Below, in pieces: positions 1 to 26,764 of a DNA stretch of 28,060 bases (position 1 is its first letter; each line of letters starts with the position of its first letter). The DNA lies in the IMG/VR virus record IMGVR_UViG_3300044641_005189, positions 1 through 28,060 of that record, one strand, 5' to 3'. This DNA is from a virus. A program made the position numbers and the translations under genes. The notes beneath the pieces are model-generated. The model did no database searches. It was not told where the DNA came from and saw only the letters and a list, made by a program, of their open reading frames with translations.

Positions 1-770
<770 letters not shown>

Positions 771-2450: not shown

Positions 2451-5101
2451 TGAATATTGAGCGTGCCGACGTTGAGGGTTTGAATCGTCGCAGCACCACC
2501 GCCGCCACCACCACCACCGCTTTCTGGCTGCGTGGTCGCCGATGCCGTGTTGCTGGCCGTGCTGTCGCCTGAACCGTTCATGGCAAAGACGCGATAATCG
2601 TAAGTCGTCGAAGCCGTGAGCCCGGTGTTGTTGTAGCTCGTCGCGTTTGCGGCTGTCGTAGCGATTGCACTAAATGCGCTATTGCCCACTCTGCTCTCAA
2701 TGCGAAACCCGGTCTCGTTGTTGGAGTTATCGGTCCACGCGAGGTTGATTTGAGATGAGCTGAACTGGGTCGCTCCGAGGCTGGATGGCGCATTTGGTAC
2801 GCCGCCGATTGTGTAGGTTCCACTTTGCACGGAGCTGTCGGACAAACCGGACTTAACCGTGATAGCCTTCAGCGTCGTCGTCGCGCCGGGAAGGGTCACC
2901 GGAGAAGAATAAACCAGACTGCTCGTGGTTGGCGTGCTGCCGTCAATAGTGTAGTAAATCGTGTAAGGTGCCGGGGAGCCCGTCGTGATCGTGACCGTCT
3001 GTGCGGACCCATAGGTGCCGGGAGCCGGTGAATACTGGGGCGTCGCCGCGCCTCCGAGATAGTCCTCGTTTCCGTTGATGGCACGATGAGCGGCCGGGAG
3101 TCGCGAAACGTCAGCCGTAGCCGCGCTATCAACGTTGAATACTGGCCACGGCTTTGACCCAAACCAAGCTGGCTTTGCAGACCACGCCAGCGAGGCCGGA
3201 AACGTGGAGCCAGAGCTATTCTGGATCGCCCCCGTTCCGGTGCCAGCAGCGAAATAGTTATGCGTCACCGTCGAGCTTGCCTGCACATCCAAGTCGCGCT
3301 CCTGCCAGCCACCCGGTCCTTGATACAGTTTCACAGCCGTCAATTCAGCCGGAAGTGAACCTGAGCCAAAGTCCATCGTGACCGAGTTTCCAGCGACCGC
3401 CGTGACGTAAGACGAGCCGATGGCCCCCATACCCGTCGACTTGTTGTTCCACCAGACGCGGGGCCAAATTCTCCCACCAGTTGCCGCGTCGCCTGTGAAC
3501 CAAGTGCCGCCCGACACGGTGAAGATTCCTACGGTGTTGCTCACCCGCGTCGTCAGCGTAGCAGAAGTTTCCCAGTCGGACCAGAAATCCCCAACGGCCA
3601 CGTCACCCGCTTGGATCACGTAAGTGTTAGGAGCGTACCCCGGCTGGCTTCGATCAACCTGACCAACTTGATTTGACAGCCCAGTCGGTCCAGCAAATCC
3701 GTTTGCGTCCAAATTGAAATTTGGTTGGCCCCACATGATGCGTCCGGCGTTTACTCCATCTTGACCGAAGAAGTTTCGAGCGACGACATGACGCCGCGTG
3801 AATCGGTGCAGCATCAGGGAATACCAGCCCGCCAGCCCTGTGCCTCCACCGTAGAAATAATTACCGTAGACGGTGTTGTCTGACGAGCTGCCGTGGTAGC
3901 CGTCCGCGACATGGTTGTAGGCGTAGTTGCCCTCCACAAGGTTCAACATCGGGTGCGCGTTGTGGAGGTCCGAGCCTAGATCTGGTGCATAGTTGTATGC
4001 GTAGACGTTGTTGAACGAATTTCCGTTGTCGTAAATCCAAGTTCCCCATCCGCCGGTGATGATGTTGTCGTAGATTGCCGAGCTGGTCATGCTCCCAAAT
4101 CCGATAGCTCCGTCCGAGCTGACGCTCGGGGCAGCGGTAAACACGCATTTGCGAATCTCACAACGGTATGAATCGCCAATCCCAATGGCGGAACCGTTGG
4201 CTGTGTTCATCGACCAGTTCAAGAACTTGACATCATACACCCAACAATACTCCGCAGCCGTGATAGCAATAACGGCTGGTGGATGGCTGGAAGAGGCGTA
4301 GGAAACGGAGAACCCCTCAAAACCAACGCCAGACGTGATCCAGTTTTGGCCAGCCAAAGCATATCGGTAGATCTTCAGCTCAAGGTTGGTCGCGTCTGCC
4401 GGTAACGCAGGATCAATGGTGACCGTCGTGCCCGTTTTCCCAGTAACCCGAGCATACATCCGGCGAGCTTCCGGCCACCCCAAGGAAGTCCACACTGGCG
4501 GTGCTCCAGCCTGAATGCGGGCATTGTTGACTTCGTTTTCGTAGGCGATGGAGACGTGGTCCCCGACTGTGTAGAGCGAGGTTTCATCAACGGTCAACGT
4601 GCGCGTTCCCTTGGTCTTTGTGCCAGTGACGATTTTGGGAGACTGGTCGGGAATTCCAGGCGATCCAAATTGAAATACACTCTGTGTCGTCGCGATTACA
4701 AACGTAACGCTGCCACTTCCAGCTCCACGAATAGTTACGTTGTCTTTATTCTGTATGTAGAGCGCCCTCGAATCGAAGCGATAAGTGCCGGGCGGAAAGT
4801 AAATCACGTCGCCAGGATTAGCAGCAGCGTACGCCGCCGCGACCGCAGCGTTGGCGCTCACGACGCCCGTTGAATCGGCGTTGTACGGAGCTGCAGTGAC
4901 GTTGCGCACCGTGCCGGTGACGGCACGATCATTCACGCCGCCTGCTAGGTACTGGTCGATCCCACCGGGGATTCCGGTGCCGCCGGGAGTCCCGGCAGCT
5001 TGGCCGACTGTCCACTCACCTTGGCCTGTGGCTGGAGGTGCCCAAGTCTGGGCGAAAACCGATAGAACGCTGGCGAAAAGAAGTGCGAGGAATCGTTTCA
5101 T
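2447..5101 (-). CDS. Secreted-type beta-helix fibre/adhesin with chitobiase-like and FN3 domains, 884 aa
   Basis: The N-terminus is a signal peptide (MKRFLALLFASVLSVFAQ). From about residue 70 comes a pectate-lyase-3-like right-handed beta-helix (DVIYFPPGTYRFDSRALY, VTIRGAGSG, many Asn/Gly-rich turns). Toward the C-terminus is a chitobiase/beta-hexosaminidase C-terminal-like module (YSPAPGTYGSAQTVTI, YYTIDGSTPTTSS), then an FN3 domain (INLAWTDNSNNETGF, YDYRVFAMNGSG). It ends with eight glycines and TIQTLNVGTLNIQ. Such beta-helices bind or cut polysaccharide. It follows the LamG-like fibre gene by four bases and overlaps the holin gene. A signal peptide on a phage fibre is unusual; the product may be exported, or the segment may be a retained N-terminal helix. 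Confidence 0.8.
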   Translation of the reverse strand: MKRFLALLFASVLSVFAQTWAPPATGQGEWTVGQAAGTPGGTGIPGGIDQYLAGGVNDRAVTGTVRNVTAAPYNADSTGVVSANAAVAAAYAAANPGDVIYFPPGTYRFDSRALYIQNKDNVTIRGAGSGSVTFVIATTQSVFQFGSPGIPDQSPKIVTGTKTKGTRTLTVDETSLYTVGDHVSIAYENEVNNARIQAGAPPVWTSLGWPEARRMYARVTGKTGTTVTIDPALPADATNLELKIYRYALAGQNWITSGVGFEGFSVSYASSSHPPAVIAITAAEYCWVYDVKFLNWSMNTANGSAIGIGDSYRCEIRKCVFTAAPSVSSDGAIGFGSMTSSAIYDNIITGGWGTWIYDNGNSFNNVYAYNYAPDLGSDLHNAHPMLNLVEGNYAYNHVADGYHGSSSDNTVYGNYFYGGGTGLAGWYSLMLHRFTRRHVVARNFFGQDGVNAGRIMWGQPNFNLDANGFAGPTGLSNQVGQVDRSQPGYAPNTYVIQAGDVAVGDFWSDWETSATLTTRVSNTVGIFTVSGGTWFTGDAATGGRIWPRVWWNNKSTGMGAIGSSYVTAVAGNSVTMDFGSGSLPAELTAVKLYQGPGGWQERDLDVQASSTVTHNYFAAGTGTGAIQNSSGSTFPASLAWSAKPAWFGSKPWPVFNVDSAATADVSRLPAAHRAINGNEDYLGGAATPQYSPAPGTYGSAQTVTITTGSPAPYTIYYTIDGSTPTTSSLVYSSPVTLPGATTTLKAITVKSGLSDSSVQSGTYTIGGVPNAPSSLGATQFSSSQINLAWTDNSNNETGFRIESRVGNSAFSAIATTAANATSYNNTGLTASTTYDYRVFAMNGSGDSTASNTASATTQPESGGGGGGGGAATIQTLNVGTLNIQ

Positions 5102-10080: not shown

Positions 10081-11058
10081 TTACAGACCAACGATCTCAC
10101 CATGCGCAGCCGGGTGATTAACGATGAGGGTGCCGGTCCAATCAACAAACCCGCGTTCACCGCCACCGAGATTCGGCAGCGAATTGGTGCCCATCGGGAT
10201 GAGTTCGCCAACTTTGAGGTAATCCGGGTTGATGAGATAGCCCACGTCCTTGTTCGTCGTGTCCGGCGAGGTAACGGGGTTCATGTTGACGATGGACACC
10301 GAACCGTTGTCCGCCATATATTGCTTTACGAACAGTTTGATGGTGCCGTCACCGCTGTTGGCGTTATACGTGCGAATGGCACCCGTGGTCGTGTCCGCCT
10401 GGGTGTAGGCGGTGATAACGGTACGAAGTGCCGTGTCGGCAACGAGCGTCAGATCCGCCGCTTCGCCGCTCGTGCGGTAAACCGACGTAATAAGACCATT
10501 AAACGCGACTTCCGACATGGCGCCGGAAGCGTGGATGCTGCCCGACGGGGTGCGATAGGCCGCAGGGACATCGGACGGGCCGGTGCTATCCAGCCAGTCG
10601 CCGAGACCGCGCAGCGTGTACGCGGTGCCGCCACCGTTTTCCGCCGCACGATCTTGGGTGCCAAGGATGGTCGCCTCAATGTCGCGCTTCAGTTCTTTGA
10701 TAGCCTTCAGTTCGGCCTTCGCGTAGGTAGAGGCGTCGCCCGAATCAACGGCCTTTTGGATGTTGGTCTCCATGAATTCGCGCCGCAGCGTGTGGACGTA
10801 ATTGCCCACGCGAGCGAGATCGGCGAACTTGTTGGTAAAGCTAGTAACGTCGGAGCCCTCGGCAACCGACGTGGTGTTGACATCAGCCAACTTGTCGATG
10901 CCCCACTCATGGAAAGTGGCGCGGATTTTGAGCTTTTCGGCCATCGAGTACACGGGCGTGGACGACGGAGCGAGCAGGGCGACAGCCGATTCGATTTCCT
11001 CGCGGTTGAGCGCGGCAGAACCCGGAGAGGTCGTGTCGTAGGTGTTTGAGAAGGACAT
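10081..11058 (-). CDS. Major capsid protein, SU10/DUF5309-like, 325 aa
   Basis: The phrase HEWGIDKLADVNTTSVAEGS followed by TSFTNKFADLARVGNYVHT and a helix with AVDSGDASTYAKAELKAIKE is characteristic of the SU10 (DUF5309) type of HK97-fold major capsid proteins. Later parts, including GYLINPDYLKVGELIPMG and DWTGTLIVNHPAAHGEIVGL, match the family's C-terminal half. The length is normal for this type. It follows the scaffold-like gene by three bases (TAA ACC ATG) and has no Shine-Dalgarno despite the high expression a capsid needs, so translation probably depends on coupling to the scaffold gene. Confidence 0.9.
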   Translation of the reverse strand: MSFSNTYDTTSPGSAALNREEIESAVALLAPSSTPVYSMAEKLKIRATFHEWGIDKLADVNTTSVAEGSDVTSFTNKFADLARVGNYVHTLRREFMETNIQKAVDSGDASTYAKAELKAIKELKRDIEATILGTQDRAAENGGGTAYTLRGLGDWLDSTGPSDVPAAYRTPSGSIHASGAMSEVAFNGLITSVYRTSGEAADLTLVADTALRTVITAYTQADTTTGAIRTYNANSGDGTIKLFVKQYMADNGSVSIVNMNPVTSPDTTNKDVGYLINPDYLKVGELIPMGTNSLPNLGGGERGFVDWTGTLIVNHPAAHGEIVGL

Positions 11059-14756: not shown

Positions 14757-15180
14757 GGCGAAAACTCTCCCCTCCCGACTCGTCCTTGATACAATCGACA
14801 AAAATGGATTTGCCGATGAGACGATCTTTTAGCCGGCGGGGAATTGCCACAGGATACTTGCCGTCGCGCCCTTCAATAGCAGCAAAAACCCAGTTTTCGT
14901 TGCGCGCCGGGTGAATCACATGCGCTTTGAGCCGCTTGGGCACCACCATCGGAATTTCCACGGCTAAACGCAACTTGTCGGCCCCGGATGCCGTAAACCA
15001 TTTGGCCCCGTCAATCTCGTAGAAATCCTTTTCGCAAAGGTGATTGTCTCGCAACCTTGCCAATTCAGGCGGGGCCATCTTCATCTCTTTGGCCAAGGAC
15101 ATAAATCGGATGTCCCCTGGCTGCGGCTCACGTTGGGGCTGGGGTTTACGTCCACGCCGTTTTGCTGTTGTTGCATTCAT
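14734..15180 (-). CDS. Basic small protein with AT-hook-like motif, 148 aa
   Basis: The N-terminus is strongly basic with KRRGRKPQPQREPQPGDIRF; RGRKP resembles an AT-hook core that inserts in the minor groove. The rest contains LAKEMKMAPPELARL, a KWFTASGADKLRLAVEIPM segment and KVP/RR-rich strands, ending in ESGGESFRHELLTGL. A clear Shine-Dalgarno (GAGGAGG in the last codons of terL) precedes the TAATG start. It lies between terminase and portal, where DNA-binding packaging accessories are found. Function unproven. Confidence 0.6.
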   Translation of the reverse strand: MNATTAKRRGRKPQPQREPQPGDIRFMSLAKEMKMAPPELARLRDNHLCEKDFYEIDGAKWFTASGADKLRLAVEIPMVVPKRLKAHVIHPARNENWVFAAIEGRDGKYPVAIPRRLKDRLIGKSIFVDCIKDESGGESFRHELLTGL

Positions 15181-16808
15181 TAATAGCCTCCTCTGGTTTT
15201 CATTCCTCTACCGCCTGCCTTAATATCAACGTACCGAATGCCATCAATCGCCGCATACCGCAGGCAATCAATCGGGTCTTTAAAAATCTCCTTTTCGTCC
15301 TCGCCGATGTACTCCTTCAGCGCCAAGATGGTGTTTTCGCACCGATTGCTGATGTAGAAATGTGGGCGATTCAGCCCATCAATCGGCTTCTTGACGTTGT
15401 ACGCCATCTTGCTCTGCAAAGCCTGCAATCCTTCGTTGATATGCAGCCCTGGGGCCGGGACAAAGCGCATCCCGAGGTTGCACATTTCCTCCATGATTGA
15501 GGAACTACCCATCAGCGTCTGGTGCTTGTTTGTGCCCAACCGAGGGTCAATTAGCCGCTCGTACACTTCGGCAATCCCAAGCTGTTTCTCGACGTTTTTG
15601 ATAATGTCGATGTAGTCGTCGTAGCCGTAGCCACGGCCTCGTGCCCCCTCGCCCTCCACCCACTTGCCGCCGTTGGTCTTTGCCCAGTCGCCAAACGTCA
15701 CATCTGGCCACTCCGCCACCACCCAATACGTGTCGGACGCATCCACCCCAATCCACGACATGAACCAGTTCTTTTTGCCGGCAGGGTCCAGCACCATGTA
15801 ATAAGTCAAACCCTTTGGTATGTCCTCTGGCTTGACGACATTTACCATTTCCCCGAAACAGGGAAAACTCGTCGTCGCATTGCTTGTCGGCACCCCATAC
15901 GCCGACATAAGCGTGTAAGAAACGTCGTTCTTCGCCCGGCAGATCTCCGCTACGGTCTCGTACCCGCCCCACGGGTTGTCCTTCGTGTGGAAATAGATGA
16001 TGGCCGTGTTTTTCTGGGCGTTCTGCTGCACATAGGGCACCTTGTAGCCCTCCAGCCCGTGCAATTCCTTCATCAAGGGCGCATCCCGCTCTTCAATCGT
16101 CCGAGCCCCGCCCCGATAGTTCCTCACCGTCTCCGTTTCGCCATGAATCGGCGTAAACGTGAGCAGCAACTTGGCATCATGCGTAGCCAAACGCAGGTAA
16201 AGGCGGTCTAGCATGGCCATACCAAGCAGGTATTCGTCGCACCACGCCCCAATGTTTACCACCGTGGGCGCCGGACTGCCCAACTTCTGACCCTCTAGGA
16301 TGCTTTCGTTCTGCTGAAACTGCGTGTACGTCTTGAAAACGATCTGAGACTTGTTCGGCAGCGTCAGCTTGTACCCCGCAAAGCCGTTCTGCTGCGAATA
16401 GCTGACGTAATGCGTTTCGTTTGTCACCCGCTGCCGCAATTCTGCCGGTAACATGCCCCATACCGCCGCTTGTTGCACCATTACACTCGTCTGGGCATCC
16501 TGCGAAAAGCAGAAGATGGTGCTCTCTGGGTTGTTAATCGCCGCCTTGATGACTGCCTTGGCCCCGTAAAAGGTCTTTCCGCTGCGATTGGCGCCTAGCA
16601 GCAGCAAAGTACGGGCATCCACCAATAACTTGTCCGCCACCTTCCAATTATCGAACTCCCAGCCGTGCCGATAGGGATCTCTTAAGCTGTTCTCAATCGC
16701 CGCATGGTAAAGCCGATGCAGCTCCACCAGCTTTTCCGGCTCCATCTCTGCCATCTCCTCCGCCGTCGGAGGCTTCAGCAACGCATGTTCCTTCCAAACC
16801 ATGCTCAT
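15180..16808 (-). CDS. terL: Terminase large subunit, 542 aa
   Basis: The ATPase domain has Walker A GANRSGKT (72-79), the acidic pair DE (191-192) after a hydrophobic strand (TVVNIGAWC) and the coupling motif TFTPIHG (217-223). The nuclease domain starts near residue 336 with YYMVLDPAG (Asp341) and contains LIDPRLG (Asp421), as expected for the RNase H-like metal site. It powers DNA translocation into the prohead and cuts the concatemer. The ATG overlaps the terS stop (GGCATGA). Length is in the normal range. Confidence 0.93.
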   Translation of the reverse strand: MSMVWKEHALLKPPTAEEMAEMEPEKLVELHRLYHAAIENSLRDPYRHGWEFDNWKVADKLLVDARTLLLLGANRSGKTFYGAKAVIKAAINNPESTIFCFSQDAQTSVMVQQAAVWGMLPAELRQRVTNETHYVSYSQQNGFAGYKLTLPNKSQIVFKTYTQFQQNESILEGQKLGSPAPTVVNIGAWCDEYLLGMAMLDRLYLRLATHDAKLLLTFTPIHGETETVRNYRGGARTIEERDAPLMKELHGLEGYKVPYVQQNAQKNTAIIYFHTKDNPWGGYETVAEICRAKNDVSYTLMSAYGVPTSNATTSFPCFGEMVNVVKPEDIPKGLTYYMVLDPAGKKNWFMSWIGVDASDTYWVVAEWPDVTFGDWAKTNGGKWVEGEGARGRGYGYDDYIDIIKNVEKQLGIAEVYERLIDPRLGTNKHQTLMGSSSIMEEMCNLGMRFVPAPGLHINEGLQALQSKMAYNVKKPIDGLNRPHFYISNRCENTILALKEYIGEDEKEIFKDPIDCLRYAAIDGIRYVDIKAGGRGMKTRGGY

Positions 16809-17380
16809 GCCTTTAATTCAGCCACGGGTTCGCTTACAACCACTTCCACGGCCTCCCGACGGCCCTTCAGCAAAGCCTTTGCTTCCTCAATCGCCTTTAC
16901 CGCATCCGCCAAGCTCACCGCTTTTGCCCCTTGGTGCTCCACAATCATCTTGTTCCCCCCATCCGTAGCCAGGATGTGCTTGTCCGTAAAGATGCCGTAA
17001 CTCAGCGCCAAATCCCGCAAAGGCGTAGCCGCCAGCATGTCCGGGTCATCGCTCATCATTGCCATCTTGTCCATCGCCAGCATTCGCGTCCCCTCCGCTA
17101 GCTCCAACGCATCCTCCGCAATCACCTCCCGCCTCCGACGAATCAAATCCGCATGCGTCGTCCGAATCCGACACAACGCATTCCAATCAATCTTAAACTT
17201 CTCCTTGATCCACTTTGTACTCTTCCCTTCCGCCAACGCCTCCACAATCTGCACCGCTTTCCCCGGCTTCTTGTACTCCAAAAGCATCTTGTTCTTCTCC
17301 CCCACCTCCTGCACGGATGCCGCAGCCTCCTTTCTCAACTGCGCCCTAACAGCCCGCTTTTCTTCCTCCGTTTGCTCCAT
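16805..17380 (-). CDS. terS: Terminase small subunit-like, 191 aa
   Basis: The ATG at 17380 (MEQTEEEKRAVRAQ) has AGGAAG six bases upstream; an in-frame start 21 codons earlier would run into the control region. The N-terminal half is charged and helical, with a helix-turn-helix-like part (ALAEGKSTKWIKEKFKIDW). The middle carries helical LIRRRREVIAEDALELAEG and MDKMAMMSDD, and the C-terminus is AVEVVVSEPVAELKA. Position directly before terL, with an overlapping stop/start, and the N-terminal DNA-binding helices identify a small terminase that recognises the packaging site. It is the first gene of the late operon. Confidence 0.8.
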   Translation of the reverse strand: MEQTEEEKRAVRAQLRKEAAASVQEVGEKNKMLLEYKKPGKAVQIVEALAEGKSTKWIKEKFKIDWNALCRIRTTHADLIRRRREVIAEDALELAEGTRMLAMDKMAMMSDDPDMLAATPLRDLALSYGIFTDKHILATDGGNKMIVEHQGAKAVSLADAVKAIEEAKALLKGRREAVEVVVSEPVAELKA

Positions 17381-17457
17381 CCTCCACTTCCTGACGCCCC
17401 CCAATCTGACTGTCAAGCCTATTGGGTAAAATTCCCCAACCATTTCAATCTACAAAC

Positions 17458-17480
17458 TATTTCAACATTTATTGAAAATA
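17458..17480. promoter_or_regulatory. AT-rich dyad, operator candidate
   Basis: TTTCAA (17460-17465) and TTGAAA (17472-17477) form an inverted repeat with six bases between, flanked by A/T. A further TTTCAA lies at 17443-17448, seventeen bases before. This cluster in the AT-rich part of the divergent region is what a repressor site or promoter would look like. The protein that would bind it is unknown. Confidence 0.35.
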
Positions 17481-17520
17481 ATGCTTGACGACCTACCCAC
17501 TTTCCCCCCATCCATAATGA

Positions 17521-17540
17521 GCCCCCCGCTTTGAGGGGGC
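17521..17540. repeat. GC-rich hairpin
   Basis: GCCCCC (17521-17526) and GGGGGC (17535-17540) form a strong six-pair stem with an eight-base loop. No T-run follows on either strand, so it is not a standard intrinsic terminator. It may mark a protein-binding or packaging site, or insulate the two modules. Confidence 0.45.
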
Positions 17541-17587
17541 GAATGGGCTTGCCCAATAGCCGCCCAAGTGGTGTCCCCCTTTACCCC

Positions 17588-17619
17588 AATTTTTAAAAAT
17601 ACATCTTCAAATTTTTAAA
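17588..17619. repeat. Pair of AT-rich direct repeats, 22-bp period
   Basis: The ten-mer AATTTTTAAA occurs at 17588-17597 and again at 17610-17619, exactly 22 bases apart, or about two helical turns, so both copies would lie on one face of the DNA. The flanks are C-rich. The arrangement suggests an operator pair or an easily melted replication element. Confidence 0.4.
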
Positions 17620-17673
17620 CCTACCCCCGGGAAGAATCCCAATAATCTTCCCAGCCTGGCCCGACGATGCCCC

Positions 17674-17918
17674 CCCCCTGCCCTTGGCGTAGCCATTATC
17701 TCTCGTCCGAAGTCGAAGACTTCGAGCTGAGGCCGCTAGGCCGAAGCGTGACATCGGAGCCAAAGGGGCGGCGCCAGTAGCGGCACAACTGTGAATGAGT
17801 GTGAGGCCACGGGGACGCCCCAGAGCGCGTGGGCGAAGCATGGGGGGCGTGGGATGGATTCCGGGAGCCCTTGGCATTACTTGAGTGAGCTTATCTGTTT
17901 CCAAGGGATGGCAGGGGG
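17674..17918. repeat. Long-range imperfect inverted repeat
   Basis: CCCCCTGCCCTTGG at 17674-17687 is the reverse complement of CCAAGG...GCAGGGGG at 17901-17918, which carries a four-base insert (GATG). The arms enclose about 213 bases that hold two smaller hairpins. It could form a cruciform or RNA fold, or mark two oppositely oriented binding sites. Confidence 0.4.
17708..17724. repeat. Perfect hairpin CGAAGTC-GAA-GACTTCG
   Basis: A seven-pair perfect stem with a three-base GAA loop. A second small hairpin follows directly (GGCC-GCTA-GGCC, 17731-17742). Together they form a compact structured segment in the middle of the divergent region. No T-run follows. Confidence 0.45.
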
Positions 17919-17920
17919 AA

Positions 17921-17938
17921 CTAGGGTGAAGGCCCTAG
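17921..17938. repeat. Inverted repeat CTAGGG/CCCTAG
   Basis: CTAGGG (17921-17926) and CCCTAG (17933-17938) form a perfect dyad around TGAAGG. It lies about 110 bases before the first early gene, a good position for an operator of a rightward promoter, or for a hairpin in the early leader. Confidence 0.4.
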
Positions 17939-18022
17939 GTGAAATATGAGGGTTTCTCCCAGCTAGTATTTTATCCTGCGTCTGGTAAAGTGTGCGTGTC
18001 GGGGCGAGGTGATCCGGCGATT

Positions 18023-18036
18023 AACACTGAAACAAA
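18023..18036 (+). repeat. 14-nt leader repeat, copy 1
   Basis: AACACTGAAACAAA occurs here, eleven bases before the first early start codon, and again at 18815-18828, fifteen bases before the DUF7227-like start. In both it is followed by an A/G-rich ribosome site (AAAGGAA or AAGGAA) and ACATGAA. It is therefore a shared translation leader. Confidence 0.7.
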
Positions 18037-18046
18037 GGAAACTAAC

Positions 18047-18253
18047 ATGAACTTGCAAGAAATCAAATCCGCAGTCGAATCCGGAAAAGTGGTTTGTTGG
18101 GGAAACAGAGGGTATAAGGTAATCAAAGACAATACCGGGCAATGGCTGGTGCGTTGCGAATGGAATGGGTATTGTTTCGGGCTTTACTACGGCAAGACCG
18201 ATACGTTGAACGGCAAAGAAAGCGAGTTTTTCGTTCAGGAGGTGGCTCCGTGA
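18047..18253 (+). CDS. Small early phage protein, 68 aa
   Basis: I start at the ATG at 18047 (MNLQEIKSAVESGKVV), which has AAAGGAA nine bases upstream. The product continues CWGNRGYKVIKDNTGQWLV, CEWNGYCFGLYYG and TLNGKESEFF. This resembles a family of small unknown proteins in enterobacterial and other phages: IKxAVxxGKxVxW, YxVIKDxxGQWL, TLNGKExxFF. It is the first gene of the early module, behind a conserved leader. The C-terminus QEVAP is encoded by the bases that also form GGAGG, the ribosome site of the next gene. Role unknown. Confidence 0.75.
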   Translation: MNLQEIKSAVESGKVVCWGNRGYKVIKDNTGQWLVRCEWNGYCFGLYYGKTDTLNGKESEFFVQEVAP

Positions 18254-18804
18254 GAGTCTTAATCGCTTGCGAATACAGCGGGACGGTACGGGACGCATTT
18301 TCGGCCCGAGGGCATGACGCTTGGTCTTGCGACCTGCTTCCGTCAGAAAAGCCCGGAAATCACGTCCAAAGGGACGTTACGAGCCTGCTAGGTGACGGAT
18401 GGGATCTGTTGATTGCTCATCCGCCTTGCACTCACTTGGCCGTGTCGGGTGCCCGTTGGTTCCCTGCTAAGCGTGCGAGCGGGGAGCAACAGGCCGCGCT
18501 GGACTTTGTCCGCCTGCTTTTAGGCGCTCCGATTGCGCGCATAGCCTTGGAAAACCCTGTCAGTATCATTAGCTCCTATATACGGAAGCCCGATCAAATC
18601 GTGCAGCCTTGGCAATTTGGACATGGCGAGACTAAAGCGACGTGCCTATGGCTTAAAAACCTGCCTAAGCTTGTGCCCACTAACGTAGTCGAGGGCAGAG
18701 AGGCAAGGGTGTATAAGATGCCGCCAAGTGCGGACAGGTGGAAAGAGCGAAGCCGCACGTTTCAGGGGATAGCGGACGCAATGGCGGAGCAGTGGTCTTT
18801 TTGA
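18250..18804 (+). CDS. DNA cytosine methyltransferase-like protein, 184 aa
   Basis: The GTG at 18250 overlaps the upstream stop (GTGA) and is served by GGAGG. Motifs: an AdoMet-site-like start VLIACEYSGTVRDAF (3-17), Asp28 after a strand (SCDLLPSE), the PC motif HPPC (57-60) with THLAVSGARWF, and ENP (101-103) with VSIISS. Then come IRKPDQIVQPWQFGH and ATCLWLKNLP, and finally MPPSADRWKERSRTFQGIAD. HPPC and ENP correspond to motifs IV and VI of C5-cytosine methyltransferases. At 184 residues it lacks room for the usual target-recognition domain, so the real reaction or specificity is uncertain. It may protect phage DNA or take part in base modification. Confidence 0.75.
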   Translation: MRVLIACEYSGTVRDAFSARGHDAWSCDLLPSEKPGNHVQRDVTSLLGDGWDLLIAHPPCTHLAVSGARWFPAKRASGEQQAALDFVRLLLGAPIARIALENPVSIISSYIRKPDQIVQPWQFGHGETKATCLWLKNLPKLVPTNVVEGREARVYKMPPSADRWKERSRTFQGIADAMAEQWSF

Positions 18805-25990: not shown

Positions 25991-26228
25991 AGACAAGACC
26001 CATCTGAGTGTTTTGGACCTCCGGGGGAAGGTGTTGTGGCATGGGCCAATTCCCGGCGCCATCGCCCGAAAAAGACGCATCAGGGAACTTGAGGCGGCAC
26101 TTAAATGCTGTTCGGAGAAACTTGAACGGTTTGCCGATAAGGTGCCCAAAGACTCTCTGGAATACAAAAGCGGAATGGCCATCGTGAAATATGCCCAAGG
26201 GGTTCTCTCGAAGGGGACTATCAAATGA
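25986..26228 (+). CDS. Early protein bracketed by direct repeats, 80 aa
   Basis: Starts MKDKTHLSVLDLRGKVLWHG, then PIPGAIARKRRIRELEAALK, CCSEKLERFADKVPKDSLEY and a helical end VKYAQGVLSKGTIK. Basic-helical. Its start and end lie in two exact copies of a 16-base sequence, so both it and the HTH protein before it end in GTIK. Unknown function; a candidate mobile cassette. Confidence 0.6.
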   Translation: MKDKTHLSVLDLRGKVLWHGPIPGAIARKRRIRELEAALKCCSEKLERFADKVPKDSLEYKSGMAIVKYAQGVLSKGTIK

Positions 26229-26229
26229 A
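26214..26229 (+). repeat. 16-nt junction repeat, copy 2
   Basis: Exact copy of 25975-25990. It carries the AGGGGA-type ribosome site and the ATG of the HNH endonuclease gene. Confidence 0.75.
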
Positions 26230-26764
26230 CGAACATTTCATCGTTGGGACGGGATCGACGCGGCTTTACGAGCCCCGTGGCATAAAGGTGTATCCGATTA
26301 CGATTCCAGCCTCTTTGCTGCTCCCACCCGTGTCAGCACCCGTCCAGAAGGTCAAAACGCCTGTAAAGGGCAGGAAAGGGCCAAAGAAGGGCCGCGTAGA
26401 GCGCACCCGTAATGGCGGAACGTGGACGGAGCATCGTTATGTCGGGGTTTGGCGGTCTGCTGTCCGGCGCGTGTCCCGCTTTTGGGTGCCTAAACTGACG
26501 GCCTTGAAATGGGCTAGGTTCTCTTGGCCGGGTCCACGGGGGCGGAAGTGGGGCTACACTTGTGCCCACTGTCAGGGCAAGTTCATCAGGGATAGCGTCG
26601 AGGTTGATCACATCATCCCATGCGGGAGCCTGAAAAAGATTGAAGACCTTCCGGCCTTTATTGCCCGAGCCTTGCCCGAAGACCCCAAGGCTTTCCAAGT
26701 GCTCTGCAAACCGTGCCATAGGGTAAAGACCCTACGGGACAACGAAGTGAGGAAGCTGCAATGA
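26225..26764 (+). CDS. HNH endonuclease, 179 aa
   Basis: The N-terminal 60 residues are polar and basic (VKTPVKGRKGPKKGRVERT), followed by GTWTEHRYVGVWRSAVRRVS and RFWVPKLTALKWAR, a lead often seen before phage HNH domains. The HNH part has CAHC (113-116), EVDHI (126-130) with IPCG, and CKPCH (161-165) with RVKTLRDNE: two CxxC zinc sites and the catalytic DH and H. It probably nicks or cuts DNA. AAGGGG precedes the ATG in the junction repeat. The junction repeats next to it may be linked to HNH-driven gene exchange. Confidence 0.85.
   Translation: MNEHFIVGTGSTRLYEPRGIKVYPITIPASLLLPPVSAPVQKVKTPVKGRKGPKKGRVERTRNGGTWTEHRYVGVWRSAVRRVSRFWVPKLTALKWARFSWPGPRGRKWGYTCAHCQGKFIRDSVEVDHIIPCGSLKKIEDLPAFIARALPEDPKAFQVLCKPCHRVKTLRDNEVRKLQ

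Follow-up and report, generated by a model that had tools for sequence, protein, structure and literature searches.

What is the role of a long non-coding gap that separates the two gene arms of a phage genome and lies directly upstream of its terminase genes? This question was raised by a virus record of 28,060 bases (hereafter "the window", meaning the whole stretch of DNA analysed), in which the main gap between divergent arms spans positions 17381-18046 (666 bases). A first-pass annotation had described it as a divergent region between late and early modules and had suggested a genetic switch, an origin and/or the packaging site next to terS.

The genes do diverge around the gap. On the minus strand lie a probable terS (16805..17380), terL, encoding the large terminase (15180..16808; Terminase_6N, phrog_2), and an SU10-type major capsid gene (10081-11058); terS, for which a family match was sought and none found, was assigned by position and by the TerS-TerL order. 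The early genes run on the plus strand from 18047, beginning with a gene of no known function (18047..18253). A relative, L002, sits in a contig of 43,557 bases (G001) whose ends share 127 identical bases, as a circular assembly graph would give. In rough ORF calls its late and early arms point in opposite directions on either side of the gap, and DnaB and a DnaD/O-like loader are the distal genes of the early one. At the left end of the window record, where the contig stops, positions 1-480 (minus strand) encode a collagen-like protein with GPTGPT repeats.

Symmetrical elements of the gap

The gap had drawn attention through its density of symmetrical elements, most of which are real. The reported AT-rich dyad cluster corresponds to a TTTCAA/TTGAAA dyad at 17460-17477, inside an AT-rich block (17438..17495) with three such half-sites, and two copies of AATTTTTAAA lie 22 bases apart, at 17588 and 17610, with no further copy on either strand of the window. 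A CTAGGG-N6-CCCTAG dyad occupies 17921..17938. Two of three hairpins described as strong were recovered, at 17521..17540 (GCCCCC, an 8-nt loop and GGGGGC; no known function) and at 17708 (CGAAGTC-GAA-GACTTCG), but the third, at 17731, is a GGCC/GGCC stem of 4 bp with no stem of 6 bp or more. An inverted repeat with a 213-base loop exists as well (arms 17670-17687 and 17901-17918), but its 14 complementary positions out of 18 were equalled or exceeded in 4/12 dinucleotide shuffles.

Six perfect stems of at least 6 bp occur in the 666 bases, against a mean of 1.7 in dinucleotide shuffles, and six were reached by 1.6% of 500 shuffles; along the record, this density was reached in 5/247 overlapping windows, two of them over the gap. 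Density of symmetry is the wrong ground for assigning a function: it is moderately above shuffles, but most of the symmetries are weakly above chance or lost in relatives. Predicted RNA folds of the two strands were slightly or no better than those of shuffles (z = -1.57, with 1/20 shuffles as good, and z = -0.54, with 7/20), and an Rfam search of the window and of the region returned no match, so that the region bears neither mark of a structured RNA.

Close relatives in viral contigs comprise three sequence variants (the window, L002, and L003, which equals L004), whose alignment was judged by eye. They share 94-97% DNA identity on the terminase side, and the gap varies among them: it has insertions, its A/T repeat differs in copy number, and its middle has diverged. 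The hairpin at 17521 is invariant in all three, the stem at 17708 is retained in two, and the repeat with the 213-base gap was seen in the window alone. All three carry the A/T repeat, in two to three copies (three in L002) with altered spacing.

Two of the conserved elements bear on the possibility that the gap serves divergent transcription control, with late and early promoters and operators, and with the tracts described below forming part of the late promoter or of its regulator. The AT-rich block is nearly invariant in the three variants, and the arms of the CTAGGG dyad are fully so (its spacer letters are free, its spacing is kept, and it occurs once per genome); in the rough ORF calls of G001, the region is the sole large gap separating the arms. 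However, a promoter and terminator scan of the region gave chance-level results, searches of viral contigs found the block and the dyad in close relatives only (the dyad was present in 3/13 phage records searched), and at several loci the element discussed below lies between same-direction genes. We consider transcription control quite unlikely to be what the gap as a whole is for. The AT-rich block and the dyad are nevertheless candidate transcription-control elements, the block alternatively as a candidate protein-binding site and the dyad as a candidate operator of the early arm, and there may well be promoters alongside a packaging site.

Immediately beyond the gap, these near-identical phages differ by exchange of their first early genes. 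In the window (18047-18804), the small gene without known function is followed by a DNA-methyltransferase-like gene; in L002 the gap leads nearly straight to a GP88 gene, and in L004 different genes stand there.

A G tract and an A/T tract persist in distant relatives

The first-pass reading had been staked on the repeats being conserved together with the flanking genes. In distant relatives the palindromes are lost, but an A/T tract persists together with a G tract: the terS-sense strand retains G7AG5-T, then 44-51 bases, then the A/T tract, without the symmetry. The AATTTTTAAA pair of the window is this A/T tract, doubled. At about 50-60% TerL identity, most gaps contain a C5TC7 tract with the A/T tract on its terS side, and the terS-sense consensus reads G7-8AG5T, about 47 nt, the A/T tract, and then often CAAA..GGCC.

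In a sample of 80 TerL relatives chosen blind to the tract, 48 contigs extend at least 1,614 nt upstream of terL, and in 41 of these G5+AG4+ occurs there in sense orientation. A sequence profile built from 25 diverse loci, with the window group excluded, recovered three of the remaining seven (L034 and L016, with C9-10/G9-10, and L071, with a variant); L003 and L004 have G9 and no profile match (L004 searched), and L027 and L037 gave neither tract nor profile match. The tract is present in phage C75C1, whose TerL is 35% identical, and the Manatee Spring phages (TerL 25%) carry G5AG8 at the terS-terL junction, where the profile match is absent. In a second podophage TerL family, also sampled blind to the tract, the tract was found in 38/43 loci with at least 2.5 kb upstream and in antisense in 0/43; the A/T tract stood at the expected place in 26 of the 38.

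These samples bear on the view that the gap has no common function, its palindromes having arisen by chance in non-coding DNA rich in A/T and in G/C. That view draws on the moderate excess of stems, on the chance-level inverted repeat, on the ordinary RNA folds and on the degenerate G tract of the window (see below). Against it, order, spacing and orientation of the two tracts are fixed even where TerL identity among relatives falls to about 30%. For the element in relatives this refutes it, leaving chance as a possible source of single palindromes, and for the locus as a whole we hold it to be very improbable.

Another G-rich motif, GGACGGGGGAAAGG, which the window has at 17513 with 3 mismatches, was set aside as a subgroup feature at most, being found with up to three mismatches in 10/35 loci as compared with 2/35 shuffled ones. 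Among the matches listed, 10/74 loci have copies of CTAGGG/CCCTAG or the related CCCTAGGG no more than 400 nt from the tract. In L012, amidoligase-like and glutamine-amidotransferase-like ORFs (named by eye) lie at 2528-4590, immediately upstream of the element and on the same strand as terS. A search of open-access full text found no paper describing the G tract/A-T tract element in phages; the relevant part of one paper retrieved is a list of poly-G promoter predictions unrelated to it (PMC10957765).

Orientation and spacing in a blind scan

We scanned viral contigs blind for RACCCCCTCCCCCCC, which yielded at least 118 new loci. Such a tract-first scan selects for the tract itself by design; this selection does not extend to spacing and orientation, nor to the TerL-first samples. 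With the TerL proteins of the window and of C75C1 as queries, a TerL homologue was found in 58/118 loci among the matches listed, as compared with 0/100 stretches of a reversed-pattern control scan, which was complete at that number. Among the matches listed, the G strand was the terL sense strand in all 58, and the tract lay within 4 kb upstream of terL in 52 and at 6-12.7 kb in six; the element thus stands beside the terminase genes in a single orientation. The A/T tract started 44-51 nt past the G tract in 59/74 non-redundant loci among the matches listed (control windows, 0-5 of 63-74), and a wider A/T pattern was found in 69/74 of them, again among the matches listed. Even the 60 loci without a TerL match had the A/T tract at this spacing in 33 cases among the matches listed, as compared with 9/100 in the reversed control. 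Ten large tract-adjacent ORFs from loci without a TerL match included four terminase large subunits, 396-493 nt downstream (L145, L193, L200 and L207); the other six gave three weak virion-structural matches, one methyltransferase, one DnaB helicase and one ORF without a match.

On the transcript strand, mitochondrial CSB II and the ColE1 origin likewise have a G run with a single interruption and an A/T run behind it, and there G-rich RNA stays on the template. An origin of this type was our first reading of the element, and it was replaced on the evidence of a linear contig (G013, below). Under it, transcription towards terS would cross the G tract, the G-rich RNA would stay on the template and be cut at the A/T tract, and DNA synthesis would be primed there. 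The two tracts, at a fixed distance on one strand, have the sequence that such an R-loop origin calls for; the terL-sense GC skew becomes positive about 100 nt past the tract and declines again after a maximum of +0.27 at 300-500 nt; primosomal/initiator or DnaB genes lie downstream (DnaB within 3 kb) in 4/6 of the distant-terL loci among the matches listed; and the loader gene region of G001 has no iterons. However, orientation to terL is constant while the position of DnaB changes: among 28 loci with a DnaB match, 11 had the gene downstream and 13 had it upstream on the same strand, three had it on the other strand, and L225 had both. The AT skew stays close to zero, which speaks against a displaced strand undergoing simple deamination. 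Unlike in CSB II and ColE1, the layout coincides with genome ends of isolates and is oriented to terL rather than to replication genes, and an origin leaves the contig and record ends at the element unexplained. An origin, possible as it is, explains less than a packaging site, and we judge it unlikely.

The layout of the element recurs at genome ends of actinophages

End positions were taken from 105/118 tract loci among the matches listed, three duplicate contigs and ten loci without an A/T tract being excluded. Two contigs stop 25 nt past the tract, L134 (contig G013, 43,659 bases) and L123 (contig G014, 5,289 bases). G013 is linear and has both its ends inside the element, the other end starting with CCTAAAAATTT, which is the A/T tract. 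Its TerL is 77-84% identical to those of five isolated actinophages (RosaAsantewaa, TonyStarch, Gordon, Xenomorph and Avazak), a spread list drawn from 1,911 matching records. In all five records examined, the right end consists of the G tract ... GCAT and nine bases, and the left end of two to four mostly C bases followed by the A/T tract. For other phages, sections of the literature give the 3' overhangs CGCCCGCCT, CGCCGCCCT (cluster BI), CGCCGGCCT (AU6) and CGCCGCTCT (DJ) (PMC6256688, PMC11320949, PMC10652937), and three of the strings printed there are the nine bases at the ends of our five records. The sequence of G013 breaks off at GCAT and continues at CCT, so that precisely this nine-base stretch is missing. 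At the ends of both L134 and L123, a complementary C run stands beside the tract (ACCCCCCC, TACCCCCTCCC), and a G/C hairpin is possible.

The podophage element thus resembles the cos sites of these actinophages, which have a nine-base 3' overhang: an A-interrupted G run with its T, a spacer, a GCAT-type hexamer, a short cut zone and an A/T tract, likewise upstream of the terminase genes and in sense orientation. The two groups differ in the terminase, which is TerL_nuclease/TerL_ATPase in the actinophages and Terminase_6N in the phage of the window, and in the distance from G tract to A/T tract, about 39 nt as compared with 44-51 nt in podophages. When the podophage profile was searched against joined ends, its match to Avazak spanned the junction (7.2 bits, E = 0.26), and those to Xenomorph and TonyStarch covered the G tract alone; Gordon matched in antisense only, G013 and L123 mainly at the G tract, and RosaAsantewaa, P092, HK97 and Bloomfield were not among the matches listed. 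The two groups agree in layout, but with matches this weak the agreement need not reflect common descent. A weaker version of the layout occurs in Lactococcus phage P092, whose cos has short G runs, with G4AG3TC ... GCAT ahead of the right end and an A/T tract at the left end. In E. coli phage HK97 (L453), the right end is preceded at 42 nt by G9, but the hexamer and a near A/T tract are absent from cos. Paenibacillus phage Bloomfield (L455) is a counter-example, with C8AC3 near its right end, that is, a C run instead of a G run. Mononucleotide runs near cos sites, as in HK97 and Bloomfield, may be common.

Fixed ends were seen in the actinophages and not in podophage contigs, although many of the contigs analysed are fragments. 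Among 80 contigs with a G013-like TerL, 50 had a natural start in the examined piece (29 fell short of the contig end and one had the G tract further up), and 12 of the 50 started at the left end, as judged by eye. The corresponding figure at the predicted cut was 0/72 natural starts (70 contigs) for the TerL/TerS families of the window, by BLAST mapping and by eye with L003 and L005 excluded, and 0/41 in the second podophage family (Fisher, p = 9e-6 and 2.5e-7, respectively, with distances to the ends unmatched). Because podophage contigs do not stop at the site, we do not file the element as a proven cos, and contig ends, not being sharp, were dropped as proof of a cut in podophages. Six starts are scattered inside the element (L006, L015, L024, L044, L045 and L053) and three lie in or beside G runs (L087, L100 and L101); imprecise pac cuts or loss of reads at the G run are possible causes.

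A probable packaging site upstream of terS

In lambda cos (cosQ-cosN-cosB) and in headful pac sites, the cut or recognition site lies in or just upstream of terS, and packaging proceeds in the terS-terL direction. The element has the same place and the same proposed direction, a likeness of layout. The orientation of the tract, the ends of G013 and the ends of the actinophage records together lead us to read the element as a terminase site, the third of the functions first suggested. This suggestion of a packaging site next to terS gains support from the uniform terL-sense orientation among the matches listed and from the same layout at the genome ends of isolated actinophages, and we conclude that the gap probably carries the DNA-packaging site of the phage, a cos- or pac-like site for terminase cutting or recognition; an origin and a switch are less supported. 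The element itself, its orientation and spacing in relatives, and the identity of its layout with the genome end of isolated actinophages are direct observations.

In the packaging process that we propose, the terminase would recognise, on the terS/terL-sense strand, the G run, the spacer ending in the hexamer, the cut zone of about 10-12 bases and the A/T tract or tracts. The cut would fall between hexamer and A/T tract, and the DNA would then be pumped into the head with the terS/terL side first. We infer that the degenerate copy of the window is functional; assignments of particular proteins to particular parts, and the choice between cutting every genome (cos) and cutting the first of a series (pac, headful), are to be taken in the same way. 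The circular assembly of G001, with its exact end overlap, agrees with permuted, redundant headful DNA without proving it. In some phages cos cutting is helped by HNH proteins; the window carries an HNH endonuclease gene (26225..26764, plus strand; PHROG match, with Pfam HNH below the cut-off), and linking it to the element would be a guess.

The element of the window lies about 290 bases upstream of terS, on the minus strand. Its G tract is a run of nine Gs (17670..17678), absent from the features first listed and identified by synteny; it is what remains of the feature that the family conserves best, which is G7-8AG5-T in most relatives and G6AG5TC in L002, and is degenerate in the window and in L003/L004. 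Profile alignment puts the hexamer position at 17632..17637, where the letters of the window (ATTCTT) fit poorly with those of relatives (ATTGAT, ATTGGT, ACGCAT and similar; GCAT at actinophage ends). The predicted cut zone (17620..17631) is placed by analogy of position with the nine-base 3' overhang of actinophages. A/T tract 1 (TTTAAAAATTT, 17609..17619) follows from synteny and the profile, and A/T tract 2 (17588..17601) is a duplicate unit recognised by repeat comparison.

The best profile match in the window, at 17658-17611 (minus strand), scored 3.7 bits (E = 1.8, not significant), and L002 scored 18.8 bits (E = 0.00026) in a search of 18 loci, of which 14 matched at E = 1 and L004, L027, L037 and L326 did not. 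Because the copy in the window is degenerate and its match non-significant, it is synteny with L002, together with the family, that carries the claim for the window. At E = 0.1, 7/9 phage records had a single match per genome, as a packaging site should, and the window record (G000) and G002 had none.

A wider reading, which we offer tentatively and with more doubt than confidence, is that a packaging code, in which G tract, hexamer, cut zone and A/T tract always follow one another in this order, is common to podophages with Terminase_6N, actinophages with TerL_nuclease and further lineages, although their TerS and TerL have diverged too far to be easily recognised. For most uncultured phages, assembly conceals where the genome ends and how it is packaged. 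If the code holds, the ends of many such phages could be read from sequence, and the podophage site may have passed from unit-length (cos) to headful use with its sequence intact. A signature that outlasts the alignability of terminases would allow ends and the direction of packaging to be predicted, would yield a recognition rule open to testing, and would link isolated actinophages of known overhang to large uncultured podophage groups.

The combined pattern (tract, 40-55 nt, AAAWTT) occurred in 28 stretches of 84,980 species genomes; in two of these a TerL homologue is present and oriented as expected, and one has DnaB. Seventeen of the 28 (within L328-L355) lie in Verrucomicrobiota-type assemblies, including AG-891-C06 and AG-919-G08, which are named like single-cell genomes; several of the others look like chance by their flanks, and the Verrucomicrobiota-type stretches offer a hint of the host.
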